Below, piece by piece: positions 1 through 15,466 of a stretch of DNA of 30,962 bases. How positions within the stretch are numbered: the first letter of the stretch is position 1; each line of letters opens with the position of its first letter. Made by a program: the position numbers and the translations under genes. The DNA is from a virus. A model generated the notes under the pieces. It did no database searches. It was not told the DNA's origin and saw only the letters and a program-made list of their open reading frames with translations. Location of the stretch: the IMG/VR virus record IMGVR_UViG_3300026097_000070, positions 1-30,962 of that record; one strand, written 5' to 3'.

Positions 1-381
1 TTCTGCTAGCTCTTCGGATACACCAGTGATTGACTTGTTGAGTGCATTAACCTGCTCGTGAAGAGCTTTCACGGTTTCTGCTAGATCGCTAAAGGCTGAT
101 GCAATGTTGTTGTTGATCTCAGTCACTGCTTGAGTGACATCAGACTTTTCAACCCCTTCTTCAGAAGCTTCTTCCGAAGCATCTTCCTGAGTTGCATCTT
201 CTTCAACTGCAGCTTCAGCCTCTTCAGCAGCCTTTTCAATGTCTTCAGCGGAATCAGCTTTTTCTGCTTCCTCTTCGACAACGGCTACCTCTTCGGTTTC
301 GGCATCTGCCTCTGGAGCGACCTCTACTTCTTCAACGACCTCGTCAGATTTTTCTGTAAGGTCTTCTGTTGTGTCAGTCAT
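1..381 (-). CDS. Nested in-frame scaffold protein (internal start, partial)
   Basis: The ATG at 381-379 is in frame with the protease (codon 253) and is preceded by AAGGAGGT (389-396 on the minus strand) with a seven-base spacer, the strongest Shine-Dalgarno noticed in the window. Translation from here would give only the acidic, Glu/Ala-rich and coiled-coil part without the protease. Phage lambda makes its scaffold Nu3 from the 3' part of the C protease gene in the same way, so a free scaffold protein is the natural reading. At least 127 residues are present; the end lies outside the window. Use of this start is inferred, not shown. Confidence 0.6.
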   Translation of the reverse strand, partial: MTDTTEDLTEKSDEVVEEVEVAPEADAETEEVAVVEEEAEKADSAEDIEKAAEEAEAAVEEDATQEDASEEASEEGVEKSDVTQAVTEINNNIASAFSDLAETVKALHEQVNALNKSITGVSEELAE

Positions 382-1137
382 AGGACTTACCTCCTTTGCT
401 GTCTTAGAAAGATTAATGCCTTTAGCACTATCAACTAAGAACTTTATCATGTTTGTTTTTTCGTTATCTGCTTTCTCTACAAAACCAATGTTTTGCATAG
501 ATACCCCAGATACAGGGTGGATTTCAGACTCTTTATCGGAAAGCATGACAAGCCCAGAATCTGAATCCCAGAAAACGTTCTCTAAGTCTACCACACCGTC
601 TCCCTTAATTGTGTTACCCTCTTCGGATTTTTGAATAGAAAGAATATTTGCAAACTGATTTGCAGGGGAGTCAACAAGCGAAAGCTCTACTAGGTCGTAT
701 TCTTTAATAACACGAACTTGCATGTCGCCCTTCTCGTCATATGCATCGTCCCACTTAAGCATTTTACCGCCAATAGAAAAACCTGTGTATGTACCGTCTA
801 GAACTTTTTCCCAAGTGTCTTGAGCACCTTTAGAAATATACGCAGAAACATAGACACCACTATAGAATTTCTTGGTCTCGGGATCAAAATATTTATCCTC
901 TTTGAATGAGACCATTTTCCCTACTGCTGAGGGTTGGTGCATTTCACGAATGTTCCCGCGAAAACTAGAGAAAGCTCCAAGAGAAGCTTCTGTAGTAACT
1001 ATGTCATTTTGCTTGTCAACGTTGTCTAGGGTTGCAAAACCAGAAACCGTGCGTCGCTCTTCATCAACTTTTGCGAACGGCATTGAAAGGCGAACAGCGT
1101 CGCCTTCTGTATCCCAATGGGCTTTAAACATAGTCAT
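1..1137 (-). CDS. Prohead serine protease with C-terminal scaffold domain (partial)
   Basis: Capsid maturation protease, read by eye because the frame runs off the left edge: 379 codons are present without a stop. Residues 1-170 match the HK97/XkdF prohead protease fold: His67 in REMHQP, Ser121 in GFSIGGK and the ELSLVDSPAN motif near residue 150 fit the catalytic His and Ser and the core of this family. From about residue 250 the protein becomes extremely acidic (Glu/Ala/Asp-rich) and then turns into a coiled-coil-like stretch, as expected for a delta-domain or scaffold. It lies just after the portal gene, the usual order. The start at 1137 has GGAG five bases upstream; a second Met is residue 3. 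A perfect internal ribosome site and ATG at codon 253 suggest the scaffold part is also made separately. Confidence 0.88.
   Translation of the reverse strand, partial: MTMFKAHWDTEGDAVRLSMPFAKVDEERRTVSGFATLDNVDKQNDIVTTEASLGAFSSFRGNIREMHQPSAVGKMVSFKEDKYFDPETKKFYSGVYVSAYISKGAQDTWEKVLDGTYTGFSIGGKMLKWDDAYDEKGDMQVRVIKEYDLVELSLVDSPANQFANILSIQKSEEGNTIKGDGVVDLENVFWDSDSGLVMLSDKESEIHPVSGVSMQNIGFVEKADNEKTNMIKFLVDSAKGINLSKTAKEVSPMTDTTEDLTEKSDEVVEEVEVAPEADAETEEVAVVEEEAEKADSAEDIEKAAEEAEAAVEEDATQEDASEEASEEGVEKSDVTQAVTEINNNIASAFSDLAETVKALHEQVNALNKSITGVSEELAE
389..396 (-). promoter_or_regulatory. Internal Shine-Dalgarno for nested scaffold
   Basis: AAGGAGGT read on the minus strand, seven bases before the in-frame ATG at 381. 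It lies inside the protease coding sequence, where it encodes Lys-Glu-Val-type codons, so its full match to the anti-Shine-Dalgarno is notable. Confidence 0.65.
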
Positions 1138-1146
1138 ACTAGCTCC

Positions 1147-1152
1147 ATTATA
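1147..1152 (-). promoter_or_regulatory. -10 element before protease gene
   Basis: TATAAT on the minus strand, nine bases before the ATG at 1137, in the 51-base gap after the portal gene. No convincing -35. It would give a leader of about three bases, so the GGAG ribosome site would only serve transcripts from further upstream. Confidence 0.4.
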
Positions 1153-1188
1153 TAGTCCCTTTTTAAAAATTGTTAAAAAAGTGTAATA

Positions 1189-2793
1189 TTATTCTGAAGA
1201 ACGGCCTTCGCCTTGTGCGTTGCGTCCATCGGTTGTTGCGGTGCTATCAGACTGTTCATTTGCTCTCTCGGCATCTCTCTGCCTGTTACCCGCCAGGTTT
1301 GCTCTAGTATCTGTTAGTTGTCTAGGAGACATAACAAATGGGTCGTCGCCATCTTGCCTTTGTGGAAGGCCTAGTTCTTGCCTTGCCTCGTTTGGCGTCA
1401 TAACCTGTGTCTTAACATAGCGCTCTAGAATCTGAGATTGCGAAATCTCATCTGTAAGAGTTAGCTCGTTAAAGTTAAATTCAAGAATGTCTGTTTTTTC
1501 TTTGACAATCTTGTTAATCATCTTAGCTAAGTTAGCTTGTGCTGGTCTTGCAACTTGCTCTTTGAATGTGCGATCCTGTGCAAGTGCAGCAGCAATAGCC
1601 GAAGAGTCAGCACCACCAATTTTAGAAAGCGGTACTTGGTGGGCAACTAGAATATCATCTCTATTACGAATACGGTATTCGTTAAACGATGCTTCCTGTA
1701 CCCCATTCTCGATGGGCTGCATATTAAACTCTACCTTGTTGTTTTCTGTGTCGCCAGGTAGCGGGATGTAAAGTGTTCTATGAGACTGACCCTTTAGGCT
1801 CGTCTGTAAGAATCTGAACATCTTGTCTTCTGCGTCTGGAGATAGCTTTGCACCTTTAAGAGTTACAACATAGCGGGGTACAGCTTTGTTGCCGAAGTAG
1901 TCAATGTTGTATTGTGATGCTAGCTGGTCTCCATGTAGTGAGGAAATGGCAGACATGATATCTGGGATACCATAAAAAGTATTTAGTGGAGAGTACTCTT
2001 TGTAATGTAAAATTTCGTTTGGTCTTGGATCATCTGTAATTGGGTTTTGGTTTGTACCACCAAAGTTTCTAAAGTATACTACCTTGTTTCCAATTATTTG
2101 CACGTACCCGTCACGCAGTCGGCGCACACGCATTGTAGTTGATGGGATGTGCCCGACATATCCGATTTCTCCATTGATCGTTCTTCCAATTTCTAGGTAT
2201 CCGTTTCCTGTTGCTTGAACATCTGTATAAAATTTCATCAGGGTGTGGGTGAAGGAGTCTGAATCATTTAAATTCTCTAGCCAGCTACGCAACTCAATTC
2301 TGGTTCTTTCAATTCTATTACGAGCACGCTTAACAGCTTCTTGATCTTCATTGCTTTCAAGTCTGAGCATTGTGCTTTTTGAAACAGCAAAGTCGTATCC
2401 AAGACCAACAATGTTTTCTACCTTCGCGTCAATAGCGGCGTGGTTAGCAAAAGAGGTGTCGTAGTAGTTTGCCAGTTCGTAAAGATTCCAGGGTGGTGTA
2501 ATAACATCAAACATCCCGTAGCCATTACGATAAACCTCTCCAGGATTAATCTCCTTAGACCCAGCTCCATTAGAGCCAGTTTTCTTTGCGTTAGCGTTAG
2601 CGAAATAAGTCTCATTTGGTGGCATGGCTAATGCCTTTGCCATTCTTGTAGAACGACGCTTAAAGTTGGTTTCAAGTCCGTTGTAAGCTTTTAGGTCTTC
2701 CCAGCTTTTGTTAAAGGGGTCTTGATTACTAAAGGCATTATCCTGCTTTTCCAACTCGTCAATACGAGCACCAAGAGTCCACTCTTGCGTCAT
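1189..2793 (-). CDS. Phage portal protein
   Basis: 534-residue portal, the dodecameric ring at the capsid vertex through which DNA is packaged and ejected. The sequence resembles the HK97/PBSX portal family (Phage_portal): a GNGYLEIGR segment near 190, the TFYGIPDIMSAISSLHGDQ region near 270, the YFGNKAVPRYVVTLKG strand after it, and the HQVPLSKIGG motif near 390, then a C-terminal helical segment with TPNEARQELGLPQR typical of the family. The C-terminus is polar and Gly/Ser/Arg-rich. Length is normal for the family. The start overlaps the stop of the upstream gene (TAATG), implying translational coupling, and the protease follows 51 bases later. Terminase, which usually precedes the portal, is not found upstream here. 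Confidence 0.93.
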   Translation of the reverse strand: MTQEWTLGARIDELEKQDNAFSNQDPFNKSWEDLKAYNGLETNFKRRSTRMAKALAMPPNETYFANANAKKTGSNGAGSKEINPGEVYRNGYGMFDVITPPWNLYELANYYDTSFANHAAIDAKVENIVGLGYDFAVSKSTMLRLESNEDQEAVKRARNRIERTRIELRSWLENLNDSDSFTHTLMKFYTDVQATGNGYLEIGRTINGEIGYVGHIPSTTMRVRRLRDGYVQIIGNKVVYFRNFGGTNQNPITDDPRPNEILHYKEYSPLNTFYGIPDIMSAISSLHGDQLASQYNIDYFGNKAVPRYVVTLKGAKLSPDAEDKMFRFLQTSLKGQSHRTLYIPLPGDTENNKVEFNMQPIENGVQEASFNEYRIRNRDDILVAHQVPLSKIGGADSSAIAAALAQDRTFKEQVARPAQANLAKMINKIVKEKTDILEFNFNELTLTDEISQSQILERYVKTQVMTPNEARQELGLPQRQDGDDPFVMSPRQLTDTRANLAGNRQRDAERANEQSDSTATTDGRNAQGEGRSSE

Positions 2794-3173
2794 TACTCTT
2801 CGTCTCCGTACTGATCCAGAGTATTCTTGGCTGCAATAACGGCACCAAGATCATTCATGTTAGGGAGCATACCCTGAGACATTCTGTCTACCTGCTCACT
2901 GTGCTCTTCTTCAGAAATTTTACGCATGTTTGGATAAAACTTAGCTGTGCCGTCTGCCTGACCCCAATACTTAGCTGCATTCTCTAGTTCTTGAACACGA
3001 GCAAGGTCGCCCTTCATTGACTCAATAGAAAGTGCATTACCTTCTCCGTCGGTAAAGGCTTTTCCGTTTGGCTTGTGCCAAACATAAGTGCCAAAGTTAG
3101 AGAAGTTTTCTTCAACAACTTGTACTTTTGTGTTACCTACTTGACCAGGAAAGCGTGGTTTTGGCTTCTTCAT
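2793..3173 (-). CDS. Conserved hypothetical protein upstream of portal
   Basis: 126 residues from the preferred start at 3173, or 128 from an ATG at 3179. It is mixed-charge, without membrane segments or signal. The N-terminus is basic (MKKPKPRFPGQ); the middle contains a predicted helix (ARVQELENAAKYWGQADG), and the C-terminus is acidic. I do not recognise a domain. Its stop overlaps the portal ATG, so the two are probably co-translated and it may be a portal-associated or head-neck protein; that is context only. The TGgTATACT promoter-like sequence ends seven bases before the ATG at 3173, which favours the shorter, leaderless start. Confidence 0.75.
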   Translation of the reverse strand: MKKPKPRFPGQVGNTKVQVVEENFSNFGTYVWHKPNGKAFTDGEGNALSIESMKGDLARVQELENAAKYWGQADGTAKFYPNMRKISEEEHSEQVDRMSQGMLPNMNDLGAVIAAKNTLDQYGDEE

Positions 3174-3180
3174 AACCATA

Positions 3181-3189
3181 AGTATACCA
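3181..3189 (-). promoter_or_regulatory. Extended -10 promoter, leaderless start at 3173
   Basis: Minus strand reads TG-G-TATACT, with the -10 at 3186-3181. Seven bases separate it from the ATG at 3173, placing the predicted transcription start at or next to the start codon. No clear -35. Confidence 0.45.
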
Positions 3190-3191
3190 CA

Positions 3192-6100
3192 TTATGCAGA
3201 AGTCAGTGTCTGTCTGGACCATCTTATGTTTTGAAGTGCCGCATATCGGTAATTATTAAGCGTTAAAGTCTTTCCTGTTTCCAAAACAATTTTATCTGTA
3301 CCAGTAAACTGTCTATAGATTTTTTCAATATCCGGTGCTGTGGGGTTAACCTGAGAGATGTATAGTACCTGTAGCCAAGTTTGCTCATCCCAGTCATCCC
3401 ACACCTGCTGAACTTCATCTACAATATTTACAGAATACCACTTCCTAAAAGCAGATCTTGCAAGCTCGTCCTGTTCGCTAATCTGGTGTGCAGATATGTT
3501 GTTAAAGTTTACTGGGCTAGTAACTCTTAATGCCCCGATATACTGGTTAAAGTTAAGTGCTGTGTCAAAAGATATTCCTAGAACAAACCATTTTTCTGGA
3601 TTTGTTGATGGTCTATTTACAATTCTTCCGTCAACCGAATATGTGATTCCGGATGCCAAGGAATTTGTCGTGCTATCTATTGCATAGATGTATGCCCTTT
3701 GATCGTTATCTGGATACTGTTTTAGATAAAACTTTAATGTTCTGGAAGATTCCTCTATTTCAAAAATTTGAACAGGGGCATCTGAAAACTGTTCGTCGTG
3801 ATAGTGAAGCATCATTTGAAAAGCACCAATTTTAAAGAAGTCTGACTGAGTCTTGTTGATTGGTATTTCAAACCCAGCGTTTTCTGCTACAACGAAGTCT
3901 CTCCTAAATCTAAGACCATCGTTACCAGAAGAATAGAAGTATGGGACAGAGTTCTTGTAAAGGGTAAAGGGTTCTACAAACTTATAGTCTGTAAAGTTTT
4001 TGTTCTTTTTGTATGGGTATATCTCTACACCAAACTTATTTCCAATATTGTTCTTACTGCTAGAAAGCGCTCTAGAAACCATTCTTAAAGATCTAATCTT
4101 GAATGGGTTGTACCTTATTCCAGGAACATTAAACTCCATATGAATGTTTACTGACAACAAAGAAAAGTCTACTCCAGATGGAGGGTATATAACACTGTCT
4201 TCAATTATCTCGTATTTCTCTGACTGCCATCCAGATGTTGGTCTAATTACCCCGTTGATTGGCAGGGGTACTTCTGAGTAATTATCTATAGATGAATTAG
4301 CACCGTTTTCTATGTATTGAAATGTAACATATGTTTTAAATCCTGAACCAGAGTATTCGTAGTTTCCATTACTAAAAATATCAAGGTGCGGATAGTCTAT
4401 ATTAAACTGTAAAAAGTCTAAGTCTAAATAGCTCTTGCCATCTAGACCAGTAACATACTTTGCAAAATAACTAAGGGGAAGGTAGTCTTCCCAATATGCA
4501 TCTACAGAAATATCTAGAATAAACTGATCAAGTTCTTTTCTAGCGACAAGCGTGTAGCTTCCGATATGAGTAAACACATCTGTTGCAATCAATGGTCCCA
4601 CACCGCCGCCATCAATAAGGTCCTCTAGCTCTGGGTCTGGCTCCTGGGCGTCTATGTCCTGTTCCCATTCTACCCTTGCAGGAGTGTCTCCGTCGTAGAT
4701 AATTACTTCTTCGTACTCTTCTGCAAAGTTTGTGGGAAAGCCTTTAATTAAGAATTCGTTTTGGATCTTGCTTAGATTTTTCTGAGTAGAAAAAGATAAA
4801 TTAAATATGTAACCGCCAAAGGTTTTGTTAAAGTCTGGATTGCCACCAATAAAAACCTTAATCTTTTGCTTAGCCCCAAAGAATGTTGCAACAGATCCTC
4901 CATAGTAGTCAATGACTCTTTGGATGTGAAATCCAGCATTAAAGATTACATCTGGAATATGGTCTCCAGCAGAAAAAAGAGTGGTATCTGTAAAGGTTCC
5001 GTCTACCTGCTTAGTTCTCATAACATAACTTACAGTGTCGTTTTCCATATAAACAGTTAGCCTGTTTCCAGTTGTCTCATTTACCAAGTCCATAAGAATC
5101 TCTTGACTTGTTGGCAATGATCTAACCATAAAAGCTCCGTACAAAGCTCTTGTCTCTTCTAAAAGATTATTTAAAGAGTCAAACTTAATGTAGCCATTCG
5201 TTCCAGACCATCCACTATCTGGCTTTAAGGAAACGTGATAGTCTCCAAAGAGATTTGTGTTTTGTGCAGACTCTAGATCAGAGTACCAGTCTGTTATTGT
5301 TTTGTTATCAAAAACAATTTCTGGTAGTTGATAGTCTGGCAACAATATTTCTTCAGAGTTTGGGACAAGGTTATCAATGAATCCATTAGACCATCTCCCT
5401 AACTTGGGGTATGTATATGTTTTACTATATTTTGCAAATGAGTTATCGAAGGTTAGTGTTGTAGAAGAACTAGCACCTTCTAGGTTATTCTTAACTTCAA
5501 CACCCTGCCCATAAACCCAACGCCTTTTTGAAACAATGGTTGGAACCTCATAAGGATATATTCCAACAGCATCTATATAGATTAGTGGAGCTTCTTCGTG
5601 TGCATAAAATCCTAGCCAATCCTGATCATTGTCGAGGTCGTCGTATTTTTCTGGATAAGATATGTTATCTGGTATGAGGTCTAGTGTTACAACTTCTTCT
5701 CCATTGATAACTAAGCTAGCCTTATATGGAGAAATTCTAATATTTACAAGCATAGGTCTTTCCCACTCGCCTACGAAGTGGGTACCAATAGTTTCACCGA
5801 TCATAAGCTTTAAGAATGGACCTTCTACATAAAGACCGTCCGAAGAGTTTATGGGGCCAAAAATTCTTTTATGAGAAAAAGAATGAACCCTTGCCTTCAT
5901 CCAAAACTCACAGGTAAAGTTTTGATACTGGCCAGACTCATTCATAAACCCAAAACCAGGAATAATCAGGGAGGGCTCTGAGGTGGGGTTAGCATATAGA
6001 GCGGTACTGTTAAACGCACCAAAGACTAATGGCATACTGGAGTTTTTTGCATAAAGGTTTGTAGAACTTGCAAGGTAATATGCACTAGCCCCGTCTAAAC

Positions 6101-6802: not shown

Positions 6803-7711
6803 TTACTGAATTCTATATTTTACGATAACTACTCCGCTACCACCATTTTTGCCTGGGGGCATTACCTGTGCTCCACCAGCAGATTCGCCCTGAGCATATC
6901 CACCATCTCCACCATCTCCTGTGTATGGATTTCCTGCCGTTGGGCCGTACCTGCTTGTTCCCGTCCCACCGCGTCCTCCTGCAGAATATAGGACAGAGCT
7001 TCCGCTTACTACTCCAACCCTAGTTCCAGAATCGTCAAAATATAAATCGGAAAGCGTCTTGGGAAATATAGTGCTGGTCCCTCCGGCACCTCCTAGATAA
7101 TTTACGGCAGCCGCAGCAAAGCCACCGCCACCACCACCATTGTTCCCACCGGAATAACGATAGCCATCATTACCTTGAGATGGAGAAACTGCTGGAACGT
7201 TACCAGAACCAGCACTTGCCGATCTAAACTGAGCACCACCACCAGAGCCACCATCGGGGGCGGCTCCTCCACGGGCGGCCAAGCCTTCTCCGCCTCCAGC
7301 GGCAGCATGTATATCAAATACTGAATCTTCTCCTGGTAATCCTGGAATACAGTTTGCGGTTGATCCTCTTCCCGCTCCGCCTGCTCCAACGGTAACAAGG
7401 TAGGTACCTGGAGAAGAAAGAGAGTAGTCAATTTCTCTAACACCGCCGCCACCGGCGCCACATCCAGCCTCTGTTTCGTTATCCCCAGCACCTCCGCCAC
7501 CGCCACCAGCTACAACTAACACCTCTAAATCATTATAAATGTTACTCAGGTTATTAACAACAAAGCTATCGCTATTAAGAAATACGTGATACCTGTATGC
7601 CTCATCTGTTCCTGGAACTTCGTAGTCAAATATCTCGTCCCCTCCAGTTGCATCAATGGGGATGATACCTGCGGCGACGCCACGGAATCTTAAAGATAAT
7701 GGCTTAAACAT
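6803..7711 (-). CDS. Glycine-rich adhesin paralogue 1
   Basis: 302 residues from ATG 7711, which overlaps the stop of the MAHYA gene (TAATG). The central part is glycine-rich with many short GGGG and GGSGG runs, starting with EVLVVAGGGGGGAG, and it closes with the typical NGGSGVVIVKYR strand. This is the architecture of phage glycine-rich fibre tips; in phage S16 gp38 such runs form packed polyglycine-II helices that carry receptor-binding loops. It is the most divergent of the six: the SSITGSSVT segment of its paralogues is replaced by a longer insert (around FPKTLSDLYFDDSGTRVG). A receptor-binding role is inferred. Confidence 0.7.
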   Translation of the reverse strand: MFKPLSLRFRGVAAGIIPIDATGGDEIFDYEVPGTDEAYRYHVFLNSDSFVVNNLSNIYNDLEVLVVAGGGGGGAGDNETEAGCGAGGGGVREIDYSLSSPGTYLVTVGAGGAGRGSTANCIPGLPGEDSVFDIHAAAGGGEGLAARGGAAPDGGSGGGAQFRSASAGSGNVPAVSPSQGNDGYRYSGGNNGGGGGGFAAAAVNYLGGAGGTSTIFPKTLSDLYFDDSGTRVGVVSGSSVLYSAGGRGGTGTSRYGPTAGNPYTGDGGDGGYAQGESAGGAQVMPPGKNGGSGVVIVKYRIQ

Positions 7712-8076
7712 TATGAAGCGATCCAATCTTTTACTTCTTCATCCCATTCATAATATTTATTATCGTTGGGGTATGGCTTTGGAGGTACCCAGTCAAAGAT
7801 AGTTGTACTGAGTGTCCAAGAAGGGTATGGCTGTGGTCTAATAAAGGCATCCAAATCGTCGTCATAATAATACCCCCTACCAGCATAATTTCCACGGAAT
7901 GGAAGCTTATCTTTAGTACGATGTTTGCCAAGATAGGTATTATAGCTAGTTCTTAAGCATCTGGCACCATATAGAACTGAATAATAATGTTCCCAGTCTT
8001 GATTGCTAGATTCATCCTTACCCACAAAAACTCGGGTAACGATATTGTTCTCATCTAAAACTGCATAATGTGCCAT
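7711..8076 (-). CDS. MAHYA-family tail-associated protein A
   Basis: 121 residues. It starts MAHYAVLDENNIVTRVFVGK and has a middle block TSYNTY...FRGNYAGRGYYYDDDLDAFI, then W-containing repeats ending YEWDEEVKDW. The same family is common next to fibre genes in aquatic phages; its function is not established. Four paralogues occur in this window, each adjacent to a glycine-rich adhesin gene, so a chaperone, linker or fibre-capping role is plausible but inferred. A TATAAT box lies six bases before the ATG and no ribosome site is visible, so leaderless translation is likely. Confidence 0.72.
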   Translation of the reverse strand: MAHYAVLDENNIVTRVFVGKDESSNQDWEHYYSVLYGARCLRTSYNTYLGKHRTKDKLPFRGNYAGRGYYYDDDLDAFIRPQPYPSWTLSTTIFDWVPPKPYPNDNKYYEWDEEVKDWIAS

Positions 8077-8082
8077 AAAACT

Positions 8083-8088
8083 ATTATA
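8083..8088 (-). promoter_or_regulatory. -10 element, leaderless start at 8076
   Basis: TATAAT on the minus strand followed by six bases (AGTTTT) and the ATG, placing the expected transcription start on the A of the start codon. It lies directly after the upstream gene's stop. Confidence 0.5.
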
Positions 8089-8090
8089 GC

Positions 8091-8492
8091 TTATTCAGAG
8101 GGAGCAGGAATCCAATTGCCGGACTCTTCATCCCAAGTGTAAGTTTCCCCATCCTCGGGGTAAGCTACGGGAGCTTCCCAAAGACAAGTTGTTTCATTTA
8201 AGATCCAAGAACCATAGGGCTTGGGCGGAATAAACGCATCCCGTTTTTCATCGTAAGTGAAACCGATACCGGCATAGTTGAATCTCAGTGCTTTGCTTTG
8301 GTCCTCACTAGGTTCGCCCGTTTTAGGGTCATAGTGAACACCGCCGTAGGTGTTGTAGGAAGTCTGCTTGACCGTAGAATCTTGTGGCGCGTAGTAGGTT
8401 TCCCAATCGTCAATGCCTTCCGCGACATCATCGCGCCCCACGAAAACCTGAACCACGACATTCTCAGAATCTAGTTGTGCGTAATGAGCCAT
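8091..8492 (-). CDS. MAHYA-family tail-associated protein B
   Basis: 133 residues from the ATG at 8492; a TTG four codons earlier is in frame but the paralogues all start at MAHYA. It has the full family pattern: MAHYAQLDSENVVVQVFVGR, a QTSYNTYGGVHYDPKTG block, FNYAGIGFTYDEKRDAFI, then PPKPYGSWILNE and a terminal YTWDEESGNWIP repeat. The long form, with an intact GVHYD segment, resembles versions found in marine and freshwater phages. It follows adhesin paralogue 2 with TAAGACAATG spacing. Function unknown; probably virion or fibre-assembly related. Confidence 0.72.
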   Translation of the reverse strand: MAHYAQLDSENVVVQVFVGRDDVAEGIDDWETYYAPQDSTVKQTSYNTYGGVHYDPKTGEPSEDQSKALRFNYAGIGFTYDEKRDAFIPPKPYGSWILNETTCLWEAPVAYPEDGETYTWDEESGNWIPAPSE

Positions 8493-8496
8493 TGTC

Positions 8497-9426
8497 TTAT
8501 CCAATCGTCACTGTGTCTGTAGGACCGGCGGCAGTAACGGTGTAAACCTTATTAGCGCCTACTGTGGCGTTTGTCTGTGTCACCCCGCCAGAGAATGTGA
8601 CGCTGATGGAAGTTGGCAGACTGAAGATGACAATACCGGAACCGCCAGCGCCAGAAACTTGACCGCCGTTGTCGTACAAGTTACGGTTACCACCACCGCC
8701 ACCACCAGTGTTGGCAGTTCCAGGGCCACCGGCTTGGTTTGTTGCAGAACCAGAACCGCCACCGCCAGCACCACCGGCACCACCTGGAGGCTGGTCGCTT
8801 GACCCACCTCCACCGCCACCGCGAGTCACCGAAGAACCTGTTATTGAAGAAGCAATACCGTCACCTCCCTTACCGCCAACGTTAGCGACACTTGTGGCAC
8901 CAATTTCACCGGCACCACCTCCACCGCCACCACGCTCGCCGTCACCGTCACCACCGGCAAAACCTTGCCCAGCCGTTCCACTACCACCGACAGCAGCAAG
9001 AGAACCACCACCACCGGAAGCGCCATCATAACCAGGATAAGAAATTGTGCCTGAATAGGCACCGCCACCGCCACCACCGCTAGAAGTGACAGAAGCAAAA
9101 ACAGAGGAACTTCCGTTTAGACCCCTAGTTCCAACCGTCACATTTGAAGTCACAGAAGCGCCACCAGCACCAACTGTCAGCGTGTAAGTGCCCTTTTCGA
9201 TATTCCTCAAAGTAGTTTCCGAAGCGCCACCGCCACCAGTCAACTCACCACGAACATTAGACCGATAACCGCCGGCACCACCACCACCGCCGATTCGCGC
9301 ACCACCGGAAGCCCCGCCACCCACGACAACGAACTGGCAGGGCAAACCAAGATTCTCAAACGATGACATACCGTTGAACTTTTTTAAGTCCCTGATGGAA
9401 CTGTTTGCCATAGAAGTAACAGCCAT
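8497..9426 (-). CDS. Glycine-rich adhesin paralogue 2
   Basis: 309 residues. A short Ser/Asn-rich start leads into CQFVVVGGGASGGARIGGGG, the GGGGAGGYRSNVRGE segment, long glycine runs, the conserved GGDGIASSITGSSVTRGGGG block and the SGIVIFSLP closing strand, followed by a small beta-rich tail ending in TVTAAGPTDTVTIG. This matches other glycine-rich phage fibre proteins and especially paralogue 3 (10688-11614), which shares the GYRSNV segment and C-terminal tail. The N-terminal FPxSPxDG module of paralogues 4-6 is absent. GGGGGT nine bases before the ATG can serve as ribosome site. Role in receptor binding is inferred. Confidence 0.72.
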   Translation of the reverse strand: MAVTSMANSSIRDLKKFNGMSSFENLGLPCQFVVVGGGASGGARIGGGGGAGGYRSNVRGELTGGGGASETTLRNIEKGTYTLTVGAGGASVTSNVTVGTRGLNGSSSVFASVTSSGGGGGGAYSGTISYPGYDGASGGGGSLAAVGGSGTAGQGFAGGDGDGERGGGGGGAGEIGATSVANVGGKGGDGIASSITGSSVTRGGGGGGSSDQPPGGAGGAGGGGSGSATNQAGGPGTANTGGGGGGNRNLYDNGGQVSGAGGSGIVIFSLPTSISVTFSGGVTQTNATVGANKVYTVTAAGPTDTVTIG

Positions 9427-9441
9427 TAGTCGTTACCCCCT

Positions 9442-9771
9442 TTAGCTAATCTCCGAGCCGAAAACATTAATGCTCATATCAGCAGACGAGCAGTAAGCAG
9501 TCAGAACATCGGCGGCATCCATTGTTACACCTAAAGTCAAAGTGGTAGAGTCATTTGCTGCTACGGGAATATCGTATGCCAAGTAGTGCTTCTGTACGAT
9601 AGAAGCTCCATCTGGTCTTACTGCTAGTCTAAATGTACCCGCAGATCCTGCGTGATTAGCAATTACGATCGTTGAAATAACTGCTTTTGTAGCGGATGGT
9701 ACTGTGTAAACATCAGTATTTGTTGTAGCGTCAGGTGCGGATTGCCCTAAAACTTTATAATCTCTTGCCAT
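9442..9771 (-). CDS. Small beta-rich structural protein
   Basis: 109 residues beginning MARDYKVLGQSAPDATTNTD and followed by alternating beta strands (KAVISTIVIANH, TFRLAVRP, TTLTLGVTMDAADVLTAYC). Proteins of this type are frequent among tail and virion genes of environmental phages; I know of no assigned biochemical role. There is no signal peptide or membrane segment. It sits between an adhesin gene and a module protein; only three bases separate its ATG from the upstream stop, so it is probably translated by re-initiation. A virion decoration or trimeric fibre segment is the most likely job, inferred from the fold pattern and position. Confidence 0.6.
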   Translation of the reverse strand: MARDYKVLGQSAPDATTNTDVYTVPSATKAVISTIVIANHAGSAGTFRLAVRPDGASIVQKHYLAYDIPVAANDSTTLTLGVTMDAADVLTAYCSSADMSINVFGSEIS

Positions 9772-9774
9772 TGG

Positions 9775-10170
9775 TTATGCCCCCATAAATAAAAATGTGT
9801 CTTCGAGACCGCCTGCGTCTCCGTTTTCCCACCCAGAACCATTATACACCAAAGTTTGACCTTCTGCTTCAGATGCTAATGTTACATCTCCAAGGTCTGC
9901 TAGATTCGAAGGGGAAGCTGTTTTACCGCCAATTTCAATCCACTGAGAAGTATCTCCATCATCATAATAGATGTATGTATTACCGTCTGCAGAGTTTAGC
10001 CAAATCTCTCCATTTGTTGGATTGCTAGGAGCGGTCTCAGAAATATAGAATCTGGAATTAATATCGGGTAGATTGGATAGTAGTGTCCAAGCATTTTTAG
10101 AAGCACTATAAGAATACCCGTTATAGGTATCGCCATCGGATGGGCTAGTGGGAAAATCTAATGCTGCCAT
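9775..10170 (-). CDS. Modular fibre protein (FPTSP + WxNS + DLGDV modules)
   Basis: 131 residues built from three modules reused across this locus: LDFPTSPSDGDTYNGYSY at the start (module D), a GEIWLNSADGNTYIYYDDGD block near 55-85 (module B), and DLGDVTLASEAEGQTLVYNG (module A) near 95-115. The end LEDTFLFMGA resembles the PLSPFLLGGM end of the 155-residue protein at 11946, so both probably end in the same way. The parts are the same as those in the 546-residue fibre at 15786, so this looks like a short fibre segment or a recombination-derived cassette. Leaderless start: TGgTATAAT ends six bases before the ATG. Confidence 0.6.
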   Translation of the reverse strand: MAALDFPTSPSDGDTYNGYSYSASKNAWTLLSNLPDINSRFYISETAPSNPTNGEIWLNSADGNTYIYYDDGDTSQWIEIGGKTASPSNLADLGDVTLASEAEGQTLVYNGSGWENGDAGGLEDTFLFMGA

Positions 10171-10176
10171 AAGTTA

Positions 10177-10185
10177 ATTATACCA
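10177..10185 (-). promoter_or_regulatory. Extended -10 promoter, leaderless start at 10170
   Basis: TG-G-TATAAT on the minus strand, then six bases (TAACTT) and the ATG. A perfect extended -10 whose predicted start point is the A of the ATG; no Shine-Dalgarno is present. Confidence 0.55.
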
Positions 10186-10187
10186 TC

Positions 10188-10688
10188 CTATTCTGCTGGG
10201 TCCCAGCTCTGGGCTATTTCGTTCCATGTGTAGTCGCCACCATCATCAGGACGTTCGACGGGTGGTGTATAGGTGTTTGTGACATCTGACCACACCCAGC
10301 TAGCGTGTGGTGGAACTGGCTTGACCCATTGTTTTGTTAGTTCATCCCAGGAGTACCAGCCTTGTGGCTCAGGATGCGGGATTGGTGCGATCCATTGGTA
10401 AGTTGTTTCGTCAAATACCCAGCTGACAAAAGGCTTCGGTGGAATAAAAGCATCCAGAGTTTCGTCATATCGATATCCGATTCCAGCATAATTCCCACGA
10501 AAAGGCTCTCCTCCCTGTAGGTGCTGGCCTGAAAGTGTATTGTATGAAGTGCGCAAAACCCGGCTTCCGGTAAAAACAGAGTAGTAGTCTTCCCAAGAGG
10601 TTACGCCTTCTACTATATCGTTTTCGTCGCGTCCGACAACTACCCTAAGAACAACATTTCGATTATCTAATATTGCGTAATGTGCCAT
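10188..10688 (-). CDS. MAHYA-family tail-associated protein C (long form)
   Basis: 166 residues from the ATG at 10688, which overlaps the upstream stop (TAATG); an in-frame TTG three codons earlier is less likely. It has the family start MAHYAILDNRNVVLRVVVGR, the TSYNTLSGQHLQGG and YAGIGYRYDETLDAFIPPKP blocks, and then three rather than two copies of a Trp-rich repeat of the form W(V)xDETxxxWxxPxPxPxxxxYxWDExxxxW. The extra repeat makes it the longest of the four paralogues and shows repeat gain within the family. Function unknown; tail-associated by context. Confidence 0.7.
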   Translation of the reverse strand: MAHYAILDNRNVVLRVVVGRDENDIVEGVTSWEDYYSVFTGSRVLRTSYNTLSGQHLQGGEPFRGNYAGIGYRYDETLDAFIPPKPFVSWVFDETTYQWIAPIPHPEPQGWYSWDELTKQWVKPVPPHASWVWSDVTNTYTPPVERPDDGGDYTWNEIAQSWDPAE

Positions 10689-11614
10689 TATTCCCAACTC
10701 ACTATATCTACCCCAGCGGTTATCGTTGTAACCTTAAAATCTCCATCGGTTGCGGTCGAGCCTGTCAGACCAGCGCCAAGTGTAATTGTTCGGGTTGCTG
10801 GATATCGAAGAATAACCACGCCGGAACCCCCAGCACCACCAGCCTTGAAACTAGCAGTGGGGCAAGCGCCCCCGCCACCGCCACCAGTGTTTGCGGTTCC
10901 AGGGTAGCCTGCTTCATTATCTTGTCCACCATTACCGCCTCCTCCTGCTCCTCCATTTCCGCGAATATCTCCTCCGCCACCGCCGCCACCGGCACGAGTA
11001 ACGGACGAACCTGTGATTGAAGAAGCTACACCGGCGCCACCATTGCCACCATAAGTTCCCGGTGAACCGTCAGCTCCTGCTGCACTAGCGCCTCCGCCTC
11101 CGCCTCCCGTTGTGGGACCCGTTTCGTTACCAGAATCGCCGCCTGCAAACCCTTGCCCAGCCGTACCTGCTGCGCCGGGATCGCTAGACCCGCCACCACC
11201 GCCACCACCTGAGCCTCCTACCTTGGCGATGCCAGAAGAATCGAAAGATCCTCCGCCTCCGCCTAGTGAAAGTATGTTATGAAAAAGGCTGTCGGATCCA
11301 TTCTCCCCATCTGAGTTAATCGCAGATGTCGCCCCACCGGCGCCAACAATAACCGCGTAAGTATTTCCCGTTTCACAAATTAGGGGGGACTCCGCACTAA
11401 CCCCACCTCCAGAGTTTTCACCACTAACGTTTGAACGATATCCACCGGCACCGCCTCCGCCAACACCAATTTTACTCCCACCCGTGTTTCTTGAGCCTCC
11501 GGCAGCGCCACCCGCAATCACAATATACTCAAGATTGAATTCGGAACTGCCACCAACCGCCTGAACCCACGCAGAGCCGTCCCACACCTTAGCCGTCGTT
11601 AATTGATATGACAT
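10688..11614 (-). CDS. Glycine-rich adhesin paralogue 3
   Basis: 308 residues. The first 25 residues (MSYQLTTAKVWDGSAWVQA) form a different N-terminal cap, common on aquatic phage fibre tips, followed by LEYIVIAGGAAGGSRNTGG, GGGGAGGYRSNVSGE, many GGGG runs, VASSITGSSVTRAGGGG and the closing SGVVILRYPATRTITLGAG strand with a 30-residue tail. The ATG overlaps the stop of the upstream module protein. Its tail is shared with paralogue 6 (TITLGAGLTGSTATDG versus LTIGAGLTSSTTTSNG), while the N-terminal caps differ, so ends and cores have been reassorted. Confidence 0.72.
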   Translation of the reverse strand: MSYQLTTAKVWDGSAWVQAVGGSSEFNLEYIVIAGGAAGGSRNTGGSKIGVGGGGAGGYRSNVSGENSGGGVSAESPLICETGNTYAVIVGAGGATSAINSDGENGSDSLFHNILSLGGGGGSFDSSGIAKVGGSGGGGGGGSSDPGAAGTAGQGFAGGDSGNETGPTTGGGGGGASAAGADGSPGTYGGNGGAGVASSITGSSVTRAGGGGGGGDIRGNGGAGGGGNGGQDNEAGYPGTANTGGGGGGACPTASFKAGGAGGSGVVILRYPATRTITLGAGLTGSTATDGDFKVTTITAGVDIVSWE

Positions 11615-11946
11615 TAAGACCCGCTATCTGGAGCTTCGATCCAAATATCACCAGCAACTAAAGAATAAGACCCTGAAGGATCGGTAACTCCAACATAAAT
11701 AGTTGTACCAGGATCTCCGTCTGTATTGATAACTGTTGGGGGTAACGCTTCGTTTACCCAGTTTGATGTAGAACTATCATATCTAAGAACATCTTCGTCT
11801 GATGGACTAGTAACTACTACATCATCAAGACCATTAATTTCTCCACCTGGGGGTAGTCTTTTCCATACCCCAGTTGTTGAGTCATAAACATAGTTTTCAT
11901 AAACATCGCCATTGCTAGGAGAAGAGGGGAAGTTCAAAGCAGTCAT
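11614..11946 (-). CDS. Modular fibre protein (FPSSP + DDV modules)
   Basis: 110 residues. Starts LNFPSSPSNGDVYENYVYDS with a GVWKR end (module D), then GLDDVVVTSPSDEDVLRYDS...WVNEALPP (module A), and a C-terminal stretch ending SGSYSLVAGDIWIEAPDSGS that resembles a truncated module B. The ribosome site AGGAGGAATGTA precedes the ATG, and the stop of the upstream gene overlaps the start. It looks like a minimal member of the module family and may be a linker between larger fibre proteins or a decaying cassette; no function can be assigned from sequence. Confidence 0.58.
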   Translation of the reverse strand: MTALNFPSSPSNGDVYENYVYDSTTGVWKRLPPGGEINGLDDVVVTSPSDEDVLRYDSSTSNWVNEALPPTVINTDGDPGTTIYVGVTDPSGSYSLVAGDIWIEAPDSGS

Positions 11947-12413
11947 TACATTCCTCCTAATAAAAATGGACTTAGCGGATCAGGTATAGTAATTGTATCA
12001 TTAACCCACTTTGATCCGTCATAAAATAGTGTTTGACCACTTGTCGGTGAGCTAAGCGTAATGTTTATTCCATCGATCCACTCTGAGCCATTATACTGAA
12101 GTAGCTGGCCATTTGCGGGGGATGTTAGAACAACATCATCCATATCATTAAGTTCATTGAAACTAATGGGGGTACCAGAAACTTCTACCCACTGTGAACT
12201 ATCCGTATCAGTGTAATAAATATATAGAATACCCGTTTCTGAATCCCACCACAATTCACCAGAAGCAGGAGCAGCTGGAGGGGTGGTTCCAGAAGTAATA
12301 GGGCTTACAGATCCTTCTGTAATGCGCTTCCAAGCACCGAGGGTATCATCCCAGTAAAATCCGTTATACTCATCCCCGTCGCTGGGGGATGTTGGAAAAT
12401 TTAAAGCTGCCAT
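11946..12413 (-). CDS. Modular fibre protein (FPTSP + WWDS + two DDV modules)
   Basis: 155 residues. Module D (LNFPTSPSDGDEYNGFYWDD...AWKR) is followed by module B (GELWWDSETGILYIYYTDTD), then two module-A copies in tandem (MDDVVLTSPANGQLLQYNG and NITLSSPTSGQTLFYDGSKW), ending PLSPFLLGGM. The same blocks occur in the 131- and 546-residue proteins, so this is a part of the same reusable set. TATAAT ends six bases before the ATG and no ribosome site is seen, so translation is probably leaderless. Fibre shaft segment or adaptor is a reasonable guess. Confidence 0.6.
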   Translation of the reverse strand: MAALNFPTSPSDGDEYNGFYWDDTLGAWKRITEGSVSPITSGTTPPAAPASGELWWDSETGILYIYYTDTDSSQWVEVSGTPISFNELNDMDDVVLTSPANGQLLQYNGSEWIDGINITLSSPTSGQTLFYDGSKWVNDTITIPDPLSPFLLGGM

Positions 12414-12419
12414 AATCTT

Positions 12420-12425
12420 ATTATA
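12420..12425 (-). promoter_or_regulatory. -10 element, leaderless start at 12413
   Basis: TATAAT on the minus strand, then AAGATT and the ATG (six-base spacing). It sits just after the stop of the gene ending at 12441. No Shine-Dalgarno. Confidence 0.5.
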
Positions 12426-12440
12426 CCTTACTTCTTAGTA

Positions 12441-13388
12441 TTAAGAACCTAACTCTGTCTTTACTCTTACAATGACGATACCAGAACCGCCAGCGCTACC
12501 GTCGTTACCACTACCTGACGACCCACCGCCGCCGCCGCCAGTGTTTGCTGTACCGTCTTGACCGACTCGATTGGTGGAATTACCTCCGTCTCCACCACCA
12601 CCAGTTCCCCCGACACCGTAGGTGCTTGAATCGGCTGTGTTGGTGTGACCACCACCGCCACCGCCGTAGGTTACAGAAGAGCCTGTAATAGAGTTTGCTA
12701 CACCGTTGCCACCATTACCACCCTGACCCGCAGCAGCGTTTGTTCCCGCGCCACCAGCGCCTCCGCCACCACCGCCAGAATACTGATGCCCATTACCGCC
12801 GTTGTTACCAATCCCAGAAACGCCCTGACCTGGTTTGGTTACGGGATTGCTGTCTTGGTCCCCACCAGAGCCACCACCAGAGGCACCGTTTCCGCCATAC
12901 CAACCGTCATAAACCGGATTGAACATAAGGTAGCCACCACCACCGCCGCCTGGCACATAATAGTTCCAAAGTGAACTGGGAAAACCATTAGCGCCCATAT
13001 TCGGTGTGTCTGTGGAAACAACAGAAGCGGCACCGCCAGCGCCAACTACAACATCGAGAGAGCCAGAAGGTAAGTAAAGGTTTTGTACATAGAGAACCCC
13101 ACCAGCACCACCACCAGCCCCATAGGGTCGGCCCCCAGCACCGCCTCCACCAACAAGCAACACATCCGCATACCCACCACGAGTAACCGTCAAGATACCA
13201 TCAGAAGTAAAGCTAATATACTTATAATCAAAACCATCAGTGTAGGTATCTGTGGGGGTATTAGAAAAGTCTGCTGCTAAAGTAAGATCTGAACTAGAAA
13301 TTTGTTGCCATACCCCGACGGTATTGTCCCAATAAAAACCTTCATATACCTGTCCATCAGTAGGACTGTCTGGAAAATTAAGAGCCAC
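12441..13388 (-). CDS. Glycine-rich adhesin paralogue 4 with module D start
   Basis: 315 residues starting with a GTG at 13388: GGAGG lies five bases upstream and the protein then begins ALNFPDSPTDGQVYEGFYWD (module D), matching the starts of paralogues 5 and 6. A short beta-rich domain (KYISFTSDGILTVTRGGYAD) leads into VLLVGGGGAGGRPYGAGGGA, glycine runs, VANSITGSSVTYGGGG and a closing SGIVIVRVKTE strand. It overlaps the 3' end of paralogue 5 by 11 bases. It lacks the GAGGYRSNV segment of paralogues 2 and 3 and has GGVLYVQN instead, so two core subtypes exist in the array. Confidence 0.72.
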   Translation of the reverse strand: MALNFPDSPTDGQVYEGFYWDNTVGVWQQISSSDLTLAADFSNTPTDTYTDGFDYKYISFTSDGILTVTRGGYADVLLVGGGGAGGRPYGAGGGAGGVLYVQNLYLPSGSLDVVVGAGGAASVVSTDTPNMGANGFPSSLWNYYVPGGGGGGYLMFNPVYDGWYGGNGASGGGSGGDQDSNPVTKPGQGVSGIGNNGGNGHQYSGGGGGGAGGAGTNAAAGQGGNGGNGVANSITGSSVTYGGGGGGHTNTADSSTYGVGGTGGGGDGGNSTNRVGQDGTANTGGGGGGSSGSGNDGSAGGSGIVIVRVKTELGS

Positions 13389-14280
13389 CGTCTCCTCCTA
13401 TTCTTACGATAACAATACCCGAACCGCCATCGCCGGCCGTCGCCGCCCCACTATAAGCGCCACCACCACCACTACCAGTATTTGCGGTCCCAGAACCAGC
13501 CGTTCCGCTTACAGTCCCAGCACCCCCGCCTCCAGCGCCACCAGCGCCAGCGGTAGCGCTGCTACCCCCACCACCGCCTCCAGCACGAGTTACAACAGAA
13601 CCAGTAATCGAACTAGAAAGGCCGTCACCTCCAGCGCCACCAACCCCAGATGGGGGTGTGCCGCCAATAGCTCCGGCGCCTCCACCGCCTCCACCGTTCA
13701 AACTACCGGTACGATTACCAGGTCCACCATCGTTTCCCTGCCCCGTAAGGGCTGGCCCACCAGAATAGTCGATGTTGCCGCCACCACCAGAACCACCTCT
13801 TAATCCTTTTTGCTCAACGTTATCTGCTCCCCCTCCTCCGCCGCCACCGTGTGCAACAAGTACAGAACCAATAGAAGACGATGCTCCGTTATTACCGCCG
13901 GCATTTGTAGCAGGAGCGACTCCGCCACTGCCAACCGTTACGGTGTGGCTTCCCTCTGATAGATAAAAGTTTTCAACATAGACATAGCCACCAGCACCAC
14001 CGCCGCCGCCATAAAGCCGACCACCCGAACCGCCTCCACCAATAAGCAAAATATCAGCATAGCCAGCAGACTCAATAATAATATTGCCACTAGATGTAAA
14101 ACTATAAACAGCAGCGGTACCATCATAAGAAGGTGATACTGATGCTCCTGATACCACCGCATTAACGGGGGTAGTGTCTGAAGAAGGACGACTTAACTCC
14201 CATGTTCCAGTAGCTGAAACATAAATATATTGGTTATATGTCTGCCCGTCAGTAGGGCTAGTAGGAAAATCAAGGGCCAT
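13378..14280 (-). CDS. Glycine-rich adhesin paralogue 5 with module D start
   Basis: 300 residues from the ATG at 14280, which overlaps the MAHYA-D stop (TAATG). It starts ALDFPTSPTDGQTYNQYIYV (module D), then a 60-residue beta domain (AAVYSFTSSGNIIIESAGYAD), DILLIGGGGSGGRLYGGGGG, the YVYVENFYLSEGSHTVTVG segment, glycine runs, LSSSITGSVVTRAGGGG and SGIVIVRIGGDGGS. It is closest to paralogue 4 in order of parts; the two overlap by 11 bases and look like a tandem duplication that has diverged. Receptor binding inferred from family architecture. Confidence 0.72.
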   Translation of the reverse strand: MALDFPTSPTDGQTYNQYIYVSATGTWELSRPSSDTTPVNAVVSGASVSPSYDGTAAVYSFTSSGNIIIESAGYADILLIGGGGSGGRLYGGGGGAGGYVYVENFYLSEGSHTVTVGSGGVAPATNAGGNNGASSSIGSVLVAHGGGGGGGADNVEQKGLRGGSGGGGNIDYSGGPALTGQGNDGGPGNRTGSLNGGGGGGAGAIGGTPPSGVGGAGGDGLSSSITGSVVTRAGGGGGGSSATAGAGGAGGGGAGTVSGTAGSGTANTGSGGGGAYSGAATAGDGGSGIVIVRIGGDGGS

Positions 14281-14558
14281 TATGCCGTGGCCTCCTCTGG
14301 GGCAACCCAAGTACAGGTTTCTTCGTCAAGTGTCCAATCAGGTCCGGGCTGGGGTGGAATGAAAGCATCCCTCGCCTCATCATAGATATAACCAATACCG
14401 GCATAGTTCTTGCGAATGTTGTTATTGTAGGAAGTTCTTACACAGCGCTGTCCACGCAAGTCACCATAATAGGTTTCCCAATCACCTGTTGTTTCGTCAT
14501 TACCGACAATTACCTCAGTAACAAAATTATTCTCATCAATAAAAGCGTAGTGTGCCAT
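14280..14558 (-). CDS. MAHYA-family tail-associated protein D (short form)
   Basis: 92 residues, the shortest paralogue. MAHYAFIDENNFVTEVIVGN is followed by a CVRTSYNNN block, then directly RKNYAGIGYIYDEARDAFIP and a single Trp repeat (PDWTLDEETCTWVAPEE). The GVHY segment and the final YxWDE repeat are missing, so the family varies by block loss as well as repeat gain. It lies between adhesin paralogues 6 and 5 with TAATG overlaps on both sides, so its output is probably tied to theirs. Function unknown. Confidence 0.7.
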   Translation of the reverse strand: MAHYAFIDENNFVTEVIVGNDETTGDWETYYGDLRGQRCVRTSYNNNIRKNYAGIGYIYDEARDAFIPPQPGPDWTLDEETCTWVAPEEATA

Positions 14559-15466
14559 TATGCCCCCACCGTAATTGTATCAGTCCCAGCAGTAAATGTC
14601 GTAATCTTATATCCATTACTAGTAGTTGTTGAGCTTGTTAGGCCAGCACCAATAGTTAATGAGTAGGTTTCTGGGTATTTAAGAATTACAACACCAGAGC
14701 CACCGGCAAAACCAGCACCACCACCATTTGTGTTTTTCCCGTCACCACCCTTACCGACATTTGCCGAAGATGAGCCAGTTCCGGTAGCATTCCAATATCC
14801 GGCACCACCTCTTCCATATTCGACGGGGGAGCCTATAATTGTCGAAGTAATGCCAGCTCCGCCAAGAGGAGCGGTTCCATCATCTGTTCTATCGGCATCT
14901 TGACCAGCTGCACCAGCGCCACCACCAGGCGCACCGGAATAACTTGAATAAGATAAGTTACTACCACCAGGAAAACCTTGCATATTTTCACCAGATCCTC
15001 CAGAAGCCAATGATGATGTGCTCCAAGAAGAGGCTCCACCACCAGACCCACCACTATTTCCATTAGCCCCAGCTCCGGAAGAACCAGTATCACCTCCGCC
15101 GCCACCGCCGCCGATGCAAACATAATCGCCAAAAACTGTGTTGCCACCATTAGAGCCGTTACCAGTAACGACTCCTCCTTCAGCACCACCAGCTCCAATA
15201 GTAATTGAATAGGTTTCACCACCAGAAAGCGTTATTGGTTGAAATGCCTTTGCTCCACCACCAGACATTTCTCCAGAAACAGCAGAAAGATATCCGCCAG
15301 CACCCCCACCGCCACCGGCGCCGCCACCGCCTCCAGCAACAGCAATCCATTGTAGATCGTCTGTGAGAAGATCTTTTACTATCTTCCAAACACCAGCAAC
15401 ACTATTCCAAACAAAGCCTTCGTAGTAATCTCCGTCGCTGGGAGAATCGGGAAAATCTAAAGCCAT
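14558..15466 (-). CDS. Glycine-rich adhesin paralogue 6 with module D start
   Basis: 302 residues. Begins ALDFPDSPSDGDYYEGFVWN with GVWKIVKD (module D), then DLQWIAVAGGGGGAGGGGGA, the GGYLSAVSGEMSGGG segment that parallels GYRSNVSGE of paralogues 2 and 3, glycine runs, ITSTIIGSPVEYGRGGAG and SGVVILKYPETYSLTIGAG with a tail like that of paralogue 3. It therefore combines the start of paralogues 4-5 with the core subtype and tail of 2-3, a clear mosaic. The start overlaps the XkdW-like gene stop (TAATG). Confidence 0.72.
   Translation of the reverse strand: MALDFPDSPSDGDYYEGFVWNSVAGVWKIVKDLLTDDLQWIAVAGGGGGAGGGGGAGGYLSAVSGEMSGGGAKAFQPITLSGGETYSITIGAGGAEGGVVTGNGSNGGNTVFGDYVCIGGGGGGGDTGSSGAGANGNSGGSGGGASSWSTSSLASGGSGENMQGFPGGSNLSYSSYSGAPGGGAGAAGQDADRTDDGTAPLGGAGITSTIIGSPVEYGRGGAGYWNATGTGSSSANVGKGGDGKNTNGGGAGFAGGSGVVILKYPETYSLTIGAGLTSSTTTSNGYKITTFTAGTDTITVGA

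Follow-up and report, generated by a model that had tools for sequence, protein, structure and literature searches.

The prohead protease gene at the left edge of the window, i.e., the whole 30,962-nt stretch of viral DNA that was analysed, is highly likely to supply two proteins, a protease-scaffold fusion and a free scaffold that would arise from an internal in-frame start. The internal Shine-Dalgarno (SD) sequence and ATG inside this S78 prohead protease open reading frame (ORF) are a real observation, and direct reading of the minus strand around the site gives ...GCAAAGGAGGTAAGTCCTATGACTGAC... The earlier note had placed an SD, seven bases, and an ATG at 381 in frame with the start at 1137; the coordinates were re-derived and are correct, with (1137-381)/3 = 252 codons and no stop between the two starts. 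It had also described a switch to acidic residues, and the sequence does become acidic at the internal start: the visible nested part, 127 amino acids (aa) long, has 34% D+E and a pI of about 4.05. The long ORF begins with ATG at 1137, and its 3' end lies beyond the left edge of the window. The relevant features are the following.

1..1137, minus strand: prohead (capsid maturation) protease-scaffold fusion ORF, 379 codons visible, open at the left edge
1..381, minus strand: putative nested scaffold ORF from the internal ATG at 381, acidic linker followed by a long helix, incomplete in the window
379..381, minus strand: start codon of the nested ORF (ATG; long-ORF codon 253), ATG in 80/80 close relatives
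389..396, minus strand: internal SD AAGGAGGT, 7-nt spacer (388-382) before the ATG
402..440, minus strand: predicted mRNA stem-loop (RNAalifold) immediately 5' of the internal SD, with the stem TCTTAG / CTAAGA
418..426, minus strand: GCTAAAGGC in the apical part of the stem-loop, within a block of synonymous conservation
88..96, minus strand: GCCTTTAGC, which matches the reverse complement of 418-426 exactly and lies in another block of synonymous constraint
1147..1176, minus strand: sigma-70-like promoter TTAACA - 18 - TATAAT, whose -10 box ends 9 nt upstream of the protease start codon
1189..2793, minus strand: portal protein gene, the upstream neighbour, a gene order common to annotated actinophages

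Judged on the window sequence alone, the internal site could be luck and is only suggestive, since 14-18% of synonymous shuffles give an equal match: when codons were shuffled within the ORF (n = 20,000), an in-frame ATG or GTG with an SD of at least 7 appeared in 18% of the shuffles and one with an SD of at least 8 in 14%. It is the retention across relatives that makes the internal start very probably real. The ATG and the ribosome site, whose loss in close relatives the earlier note had considered, are kept, as an in-frame ATG and a GGAGG core, in all 80 close relatives, i.e., the 80 best-scoring among 587 viral-contig relatives (61-78% aa identity). The comparison was extended to 80 more distant loci, the best-scoring ones from another scan, for which named phages had been aligned; 79 of them have an internal SD of at least 6 and an ATG or GTG at the same domain junction, mostly AAGGAGGT(G), and the 80th, L100, has the degraded SD GAAGGGGGTG before ATG243. 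The start codon in this distant clade is GTG (67) or ATG (13). An internal start is also present, and unannotated, in nine named Streptomyces and Rhodococcus phages, i.e., Annadreamy, Wakanda, BillNye, Coruscant, Jay2Jay, Bordeaux, Trina, Weasels2, and Dorin, the last being the weakest case (AAGGAG at 11 nt); in the distant relatives and named phages it sits at codons 245-277 (246-277 in the 79 distant loci), for example at GTG268 in Annadreamy and BillNye and at ATG255 in Jay2Jay. The start is kept in about 170 related phages, a count of best-scoring relatives that are kin to each other and include many contig fragments. The reading frame of one relative, L012, is shorter, perhaps owing to a sequencing error. 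The nested unit is absent from Vibrio phage Ceto, a remote S78 relative in which the protease has 202 aa and the major capsid protein (MCP) 465 aa, and Brevundimonas phage Polewnik has no internal SD above 4, so that the nested start, as sampled, is confined to the actinophage clade.

The SD is weak or absent for the long product and strong for the short one, as expected from a need for excess scaffold. In the window's clade, the mean energy of the anti-SD duplex with the 16S tail is -12.8 +/- 0.7 kcal/mol at the internal site, -15.7 kcal/mol at the MCP start, and -2.9 kcal/mol at the primary protease start; the mean at 543 other in-frame ATGs of the protease genes is -3.5 +/- 2.2 kcal/mol, and a single one of these equals the weakest internal site in duplex strength. 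The corresponding values in the distant clade are -14.1 kcal/mol (internal) and -0.5 kcal/mol (primary). The primary start of the window itself has a short GGAG with an estimated duplex energy of -5.6 kcal/mol and is not wholly SD-free.

Initiation of the fusion may be of a different kind. TTAACA-18-TATAAT scores 11/12, the best promoter match in window positions 1-3500, and TATAAT or TATACT stands 9-10 nt before the protease ATG in 47/47 sequences that could be used from the window's clade, the window among them; the -35 box is poorly conserved in relatives, with 4 of 6 positions matched in most. Because the -10 box is so close to the ATG, a transcript from this promoter would, judging from its position, begin about 0-3 nt before the start codon, which suggests leaderless or near-leaderless translation of the fusion in the window's clade. 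In the distant clade, too, the protease start lacks an SD, and an AT-rich box stands just upstream. TATAAT also occurs 6-9 nt before the ATG of four other window genes (minus-strand starts 8076, 10170, 12413, and 21064), suggesting that leaderless mRNAs may be common in this phage. Within window positions 6803-15466, the ORF list contains a series of glycine-rich proteins of ~300 aa that alternate with short 'MAHYAxLDENN' (93-170 aa) and 'MALNFPxSPxDG' proteins, an array that apparently arose when a cassette for a tail fibre or adhesin was duplicated repeatedly.

In the fusion genes, peaks of synonymous conservation lie over codons 234-243, over codons 247-255, over the residues EVAPEA and SAFSD (346-352), and close to the C-terminal end, and no such peaks were found in the MCP genes or, as the control for synonymous constraint, the portal genes of the same genomes. 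This control led us to reject strong expression or recent divergence as the cause of the constraint; an overlapping gene was likewise rejected, the block at 346-352 having stops in the other frames on inspection. The unusual conservation of codons 234-243, upstream of the internal SD, could also reflect an internal promoter from which the scaffold would be made on its own shorter mRNA, as for UL26/UL26.5 of herpesviruses. This appears unlikely, however, as the minus strand has no sigma-70-like promoter match from about 750 to 381 and the conserved block is at least partly explained by a hairpin that shows some covariation. Of the cells of the predicted stem-loop in 47 sequences, 99.6% are paired (33-50% in slid controls), and the covariation is modest, with a single stem pair that changes on both sides (G-C to A-U, in 7 sequences). 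The region preceding the SD folds more stably than its dinucleotide shuffles in both clades, with mean z values of -2.6 (window's clade, 45 sequences) and -1.9 (distant clade, 45 sequences), and also more stably than control stretches of the same genes (-0.6 and -0.7); an Rfam scan of seven relatives gave no match. In the window's clade, GCCTTTAGC sits about 330 nt downstream of the apical GCTAAAGGC, and the motif is present in the window at these two sites only (0.2 expected; no shuffle with two), which makes 418-426 and 88-96 candidate partners in a possible long-range pairing.

Further conserved stretches were recorded in the same genes. The block GCCTTTAGCGATCTAGC (window 81-96, minus strand), in the region coding for the scaffold helix, is conserved at synonymous sites, and the C-terminal coding block AAATCCCTATGGGGCGGTCGTTTCCTCAAAACTGCCGA (about 3600-3672 in relative L003, and equivalents) has near-invariant nucleotides just before the ribosome site of the MCP gene. 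GCGATCTAG recurs in the C-terminal block of relatives, and the pairs of a small hairpin seen there by eye, before the MCP gene, fail in some sequences.

That the long product is a prohead protease is indicated by profile searches of the window ORF, which matched PF04586 (S78) with 27.7 bits (gathering cut-off, 21) and phrog_9427 with an E value of 1e-104. The protease profile was matched in 13/13 tested members at E<0.01, with S78 and S78_2 but no S49 among their Pfam matches. H67 and S121, the latter in GFSIGG (first-sequence numbering), are invariant in alignments A1 and A2 and are candidate active-site residues with a presumed catalytic role. Full-length fusions of relatives comprise 430-474 aa and nested products 179-221 aa with a pI of 4.05-4.3 (four relatives). 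AlphaFold2 was run for L003 with 28 aligned sequences, and from the model, with its mean pLDDT of 60, the segmentation alone was used: a folded part at about 12-240, acidic disorder at 241-343, one helix at 342-421, and a tail. Start 253 falls at the junction between the folded protease domain and the acidic linker plus 80-residue helix. A PDB fold search with this model, which is too weak for the purpose, returned nothing below E 0.1.

The gene order in relatives is portal, protease-scaffold, and MCP. The earlier note had asked whether the major capsid gene follows, which is the case in the relatives examined: it begins 13-36 nt past the fusion stop and has the SD AGGAGGTG, the window itself ending before the capsid gene. 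The nested product is read as a scaffold because of its acidic composition, its long helix, and its position directly before the MCP gene, and domain, composition, and position together point to a scaffold as the free product. In Streptomyces relatives L002, L083, L084, L090, L091, and L092, conserved cysteines (e.g., CGNCGNAM) precede the scaffold part, whereas the window's clade has none. The disorder and low complexity of the acidic region would also fit a product that is initiated internally but serves as a minor internal head protein or as a regulator that titrates the protease. We regard such a function as quite improbable, given a domain directly before the MCP gene that combines acidic residues with one long helix and ends in a conserved C-terminal motif (SLWGGRFLKTADLF / SKWGGRFL), and given that annotated relatives have no other candidate scaffold gene between portal and MCP.

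The remaining alternatives concern the internal SD itself. Prohead proteases do cleave scaffolds, and proteolysis of the fusion may be an additional route; that it is the main source of free scaffold, with an incidental SD, is very improbable because the SD and start codon have been retained despite a phase shift of the SD and changes of neighbouring residues. Moreover, an SD of at least 7 was found at none of 828 in-frame ATG/GTG codons of the neighbouring portal and MCP genes. Translation of the SD gives K-E-V in the window's clade and E-G-G in the distant clade, and therefore it is the nucleotides rather than the residues that are under conservation. This is also evident from codon choice in the 53 sequences (median nucleotide identity, 0.71) left after removal of those at least 90% identical: the first SD codon is AAG (51) or GAG (2) and the second always GAG (53), although elsewhere in the protease genes 44% of the Lys codons are AAA and 61% of the Glu codons GAA. 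A Lys-to-Glu change at the SD always yields GAG, and residue -3 varies between V, A, and E while its first base stays G. Under this codon usage, the exclusive AAG GAG has log10 P values of about -14 and -23, whose significance is overstated by treating the sequences as independent. Retention merely for the residues Lys-Glu-Val-x-Pro-Met, or chance, for which the 18% of window shuffles might be quoted, is thereby refuted by codon choice and by the SD phase change between the clades.

The earlier idea that one gene provides both fusion and free scaffold is thus well supported by conservation, domain junction, and gene order. With these and both start signals seen in the sequence or the model, we infer the following course, from actual initiation to scaffold function. 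Initiation at 1137 would yield the S78 prohead protease with acidic linker and helical scaffold, and initiation at the SD/ATG of 381 the scaffold domain alone, about 180-220 aa long. The C-terminal part common to both products should bind the MCP encoded next door, so that free scaffold could co-assemble with a minority of fusion molecules, which would carry the protease into the prohead, where it would then digest the scaffold. The product ratio would be set by the strengths of the starts: the fusion has little or no SD and, in the window's clade, probably a leaderless mRNA, and the scaffold has a nearly perfect SD preceded by a hairpin. A more elaborate, two-mode design can be proposed tentatively and with considerable doubt: the scaffold start would lie under the stem-loop, whose apical GCUAAAGGC would pair with GCCUUUAGC about 330 nt downstream, and RNA folding together with the initiation mode (leaderless for the fusion, internal SD for the scaffold) would fix the relative amounts of protease, scaffold, and capsid protein across a large group of actinobacterial phages.

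For annotation, these results indicate that, in Stanwilliamsviridae-like and Rhodococcus phages, the genes recorded as 'capsid maturation protease' conceal a second product, the probable scaffold, that has been missed. A description of the internal start in these phages was not found in open-licence PMC papers. The principle of the internal start is already known from phage lambda and is here combined with a non-homologous S78 protease. The lambda C/Nu3 solution is thereby extended to an unrelated protease family, suggesting that dual starts which fix the protease:scaffold stoichiometry are convergent. The combination of a leaderless fusion, an SD-driven scaffold, and a conserved hairpin is possibly a new regulatory arrangement, and both the pairing of leaderless and SD-led starts and the hairpin can be tested in cultured Streptomyces phages.

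The parallel to lambda C/Nu3 drawn in the earlier note holds for the mechanism, a scaffold from an in-frame internal start in the protease gene with a common C terminus, and extends to the gene order portal - protease/scaffold - capsid and to the location of the internal start at the protease/scaffold boundary, as judged here from the AlphaFold2 model and the acidic switch. It fails for the protease class, since lambda gpC is a protease of the ClpP/SppA (S49) type and the S78 protease is not homologous to it. Here, in addition, the long product lacks a strong SD, a -10 box stands at its start codon, and a hairpin precedes the internal SD. The C/Nu3 overlap was reported by Shaw and Murialdo in 1980 (cited in PMC8508860). 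HK97 gp4 is likewise an S78 prohead protease by profile and is placed before the capsid gene. HK97, however, has no separate scaffold, the N-terminal delta domain of its capsid protein serving instead (PMC8508860). This delta domain contrasts with the nested scaffold described here. The protease of P2 gpO belongs to another family, and the scaffold studied here differs from that of P2 in being independently initiated. The joining of protease and scaffold in one gene is nevertheless shared with gpO (PMC8508860). Homologous fusion genes with an internal start at the same junction are present in Stanwilliamsviridae and in Rhodococcus phages Trina, Weasels2, and Dorin; they differ by an SD in another frame in most and often a GTG start, and their records annotate 'capsid maturation protease' only. 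Herpesviruses also combine a protease-scaffold precursor (UL26) with an in-frame nested scaffold (UL26.5), but their short product has its own transcript, whereas the evidence presented here favours an internal ribosome site.
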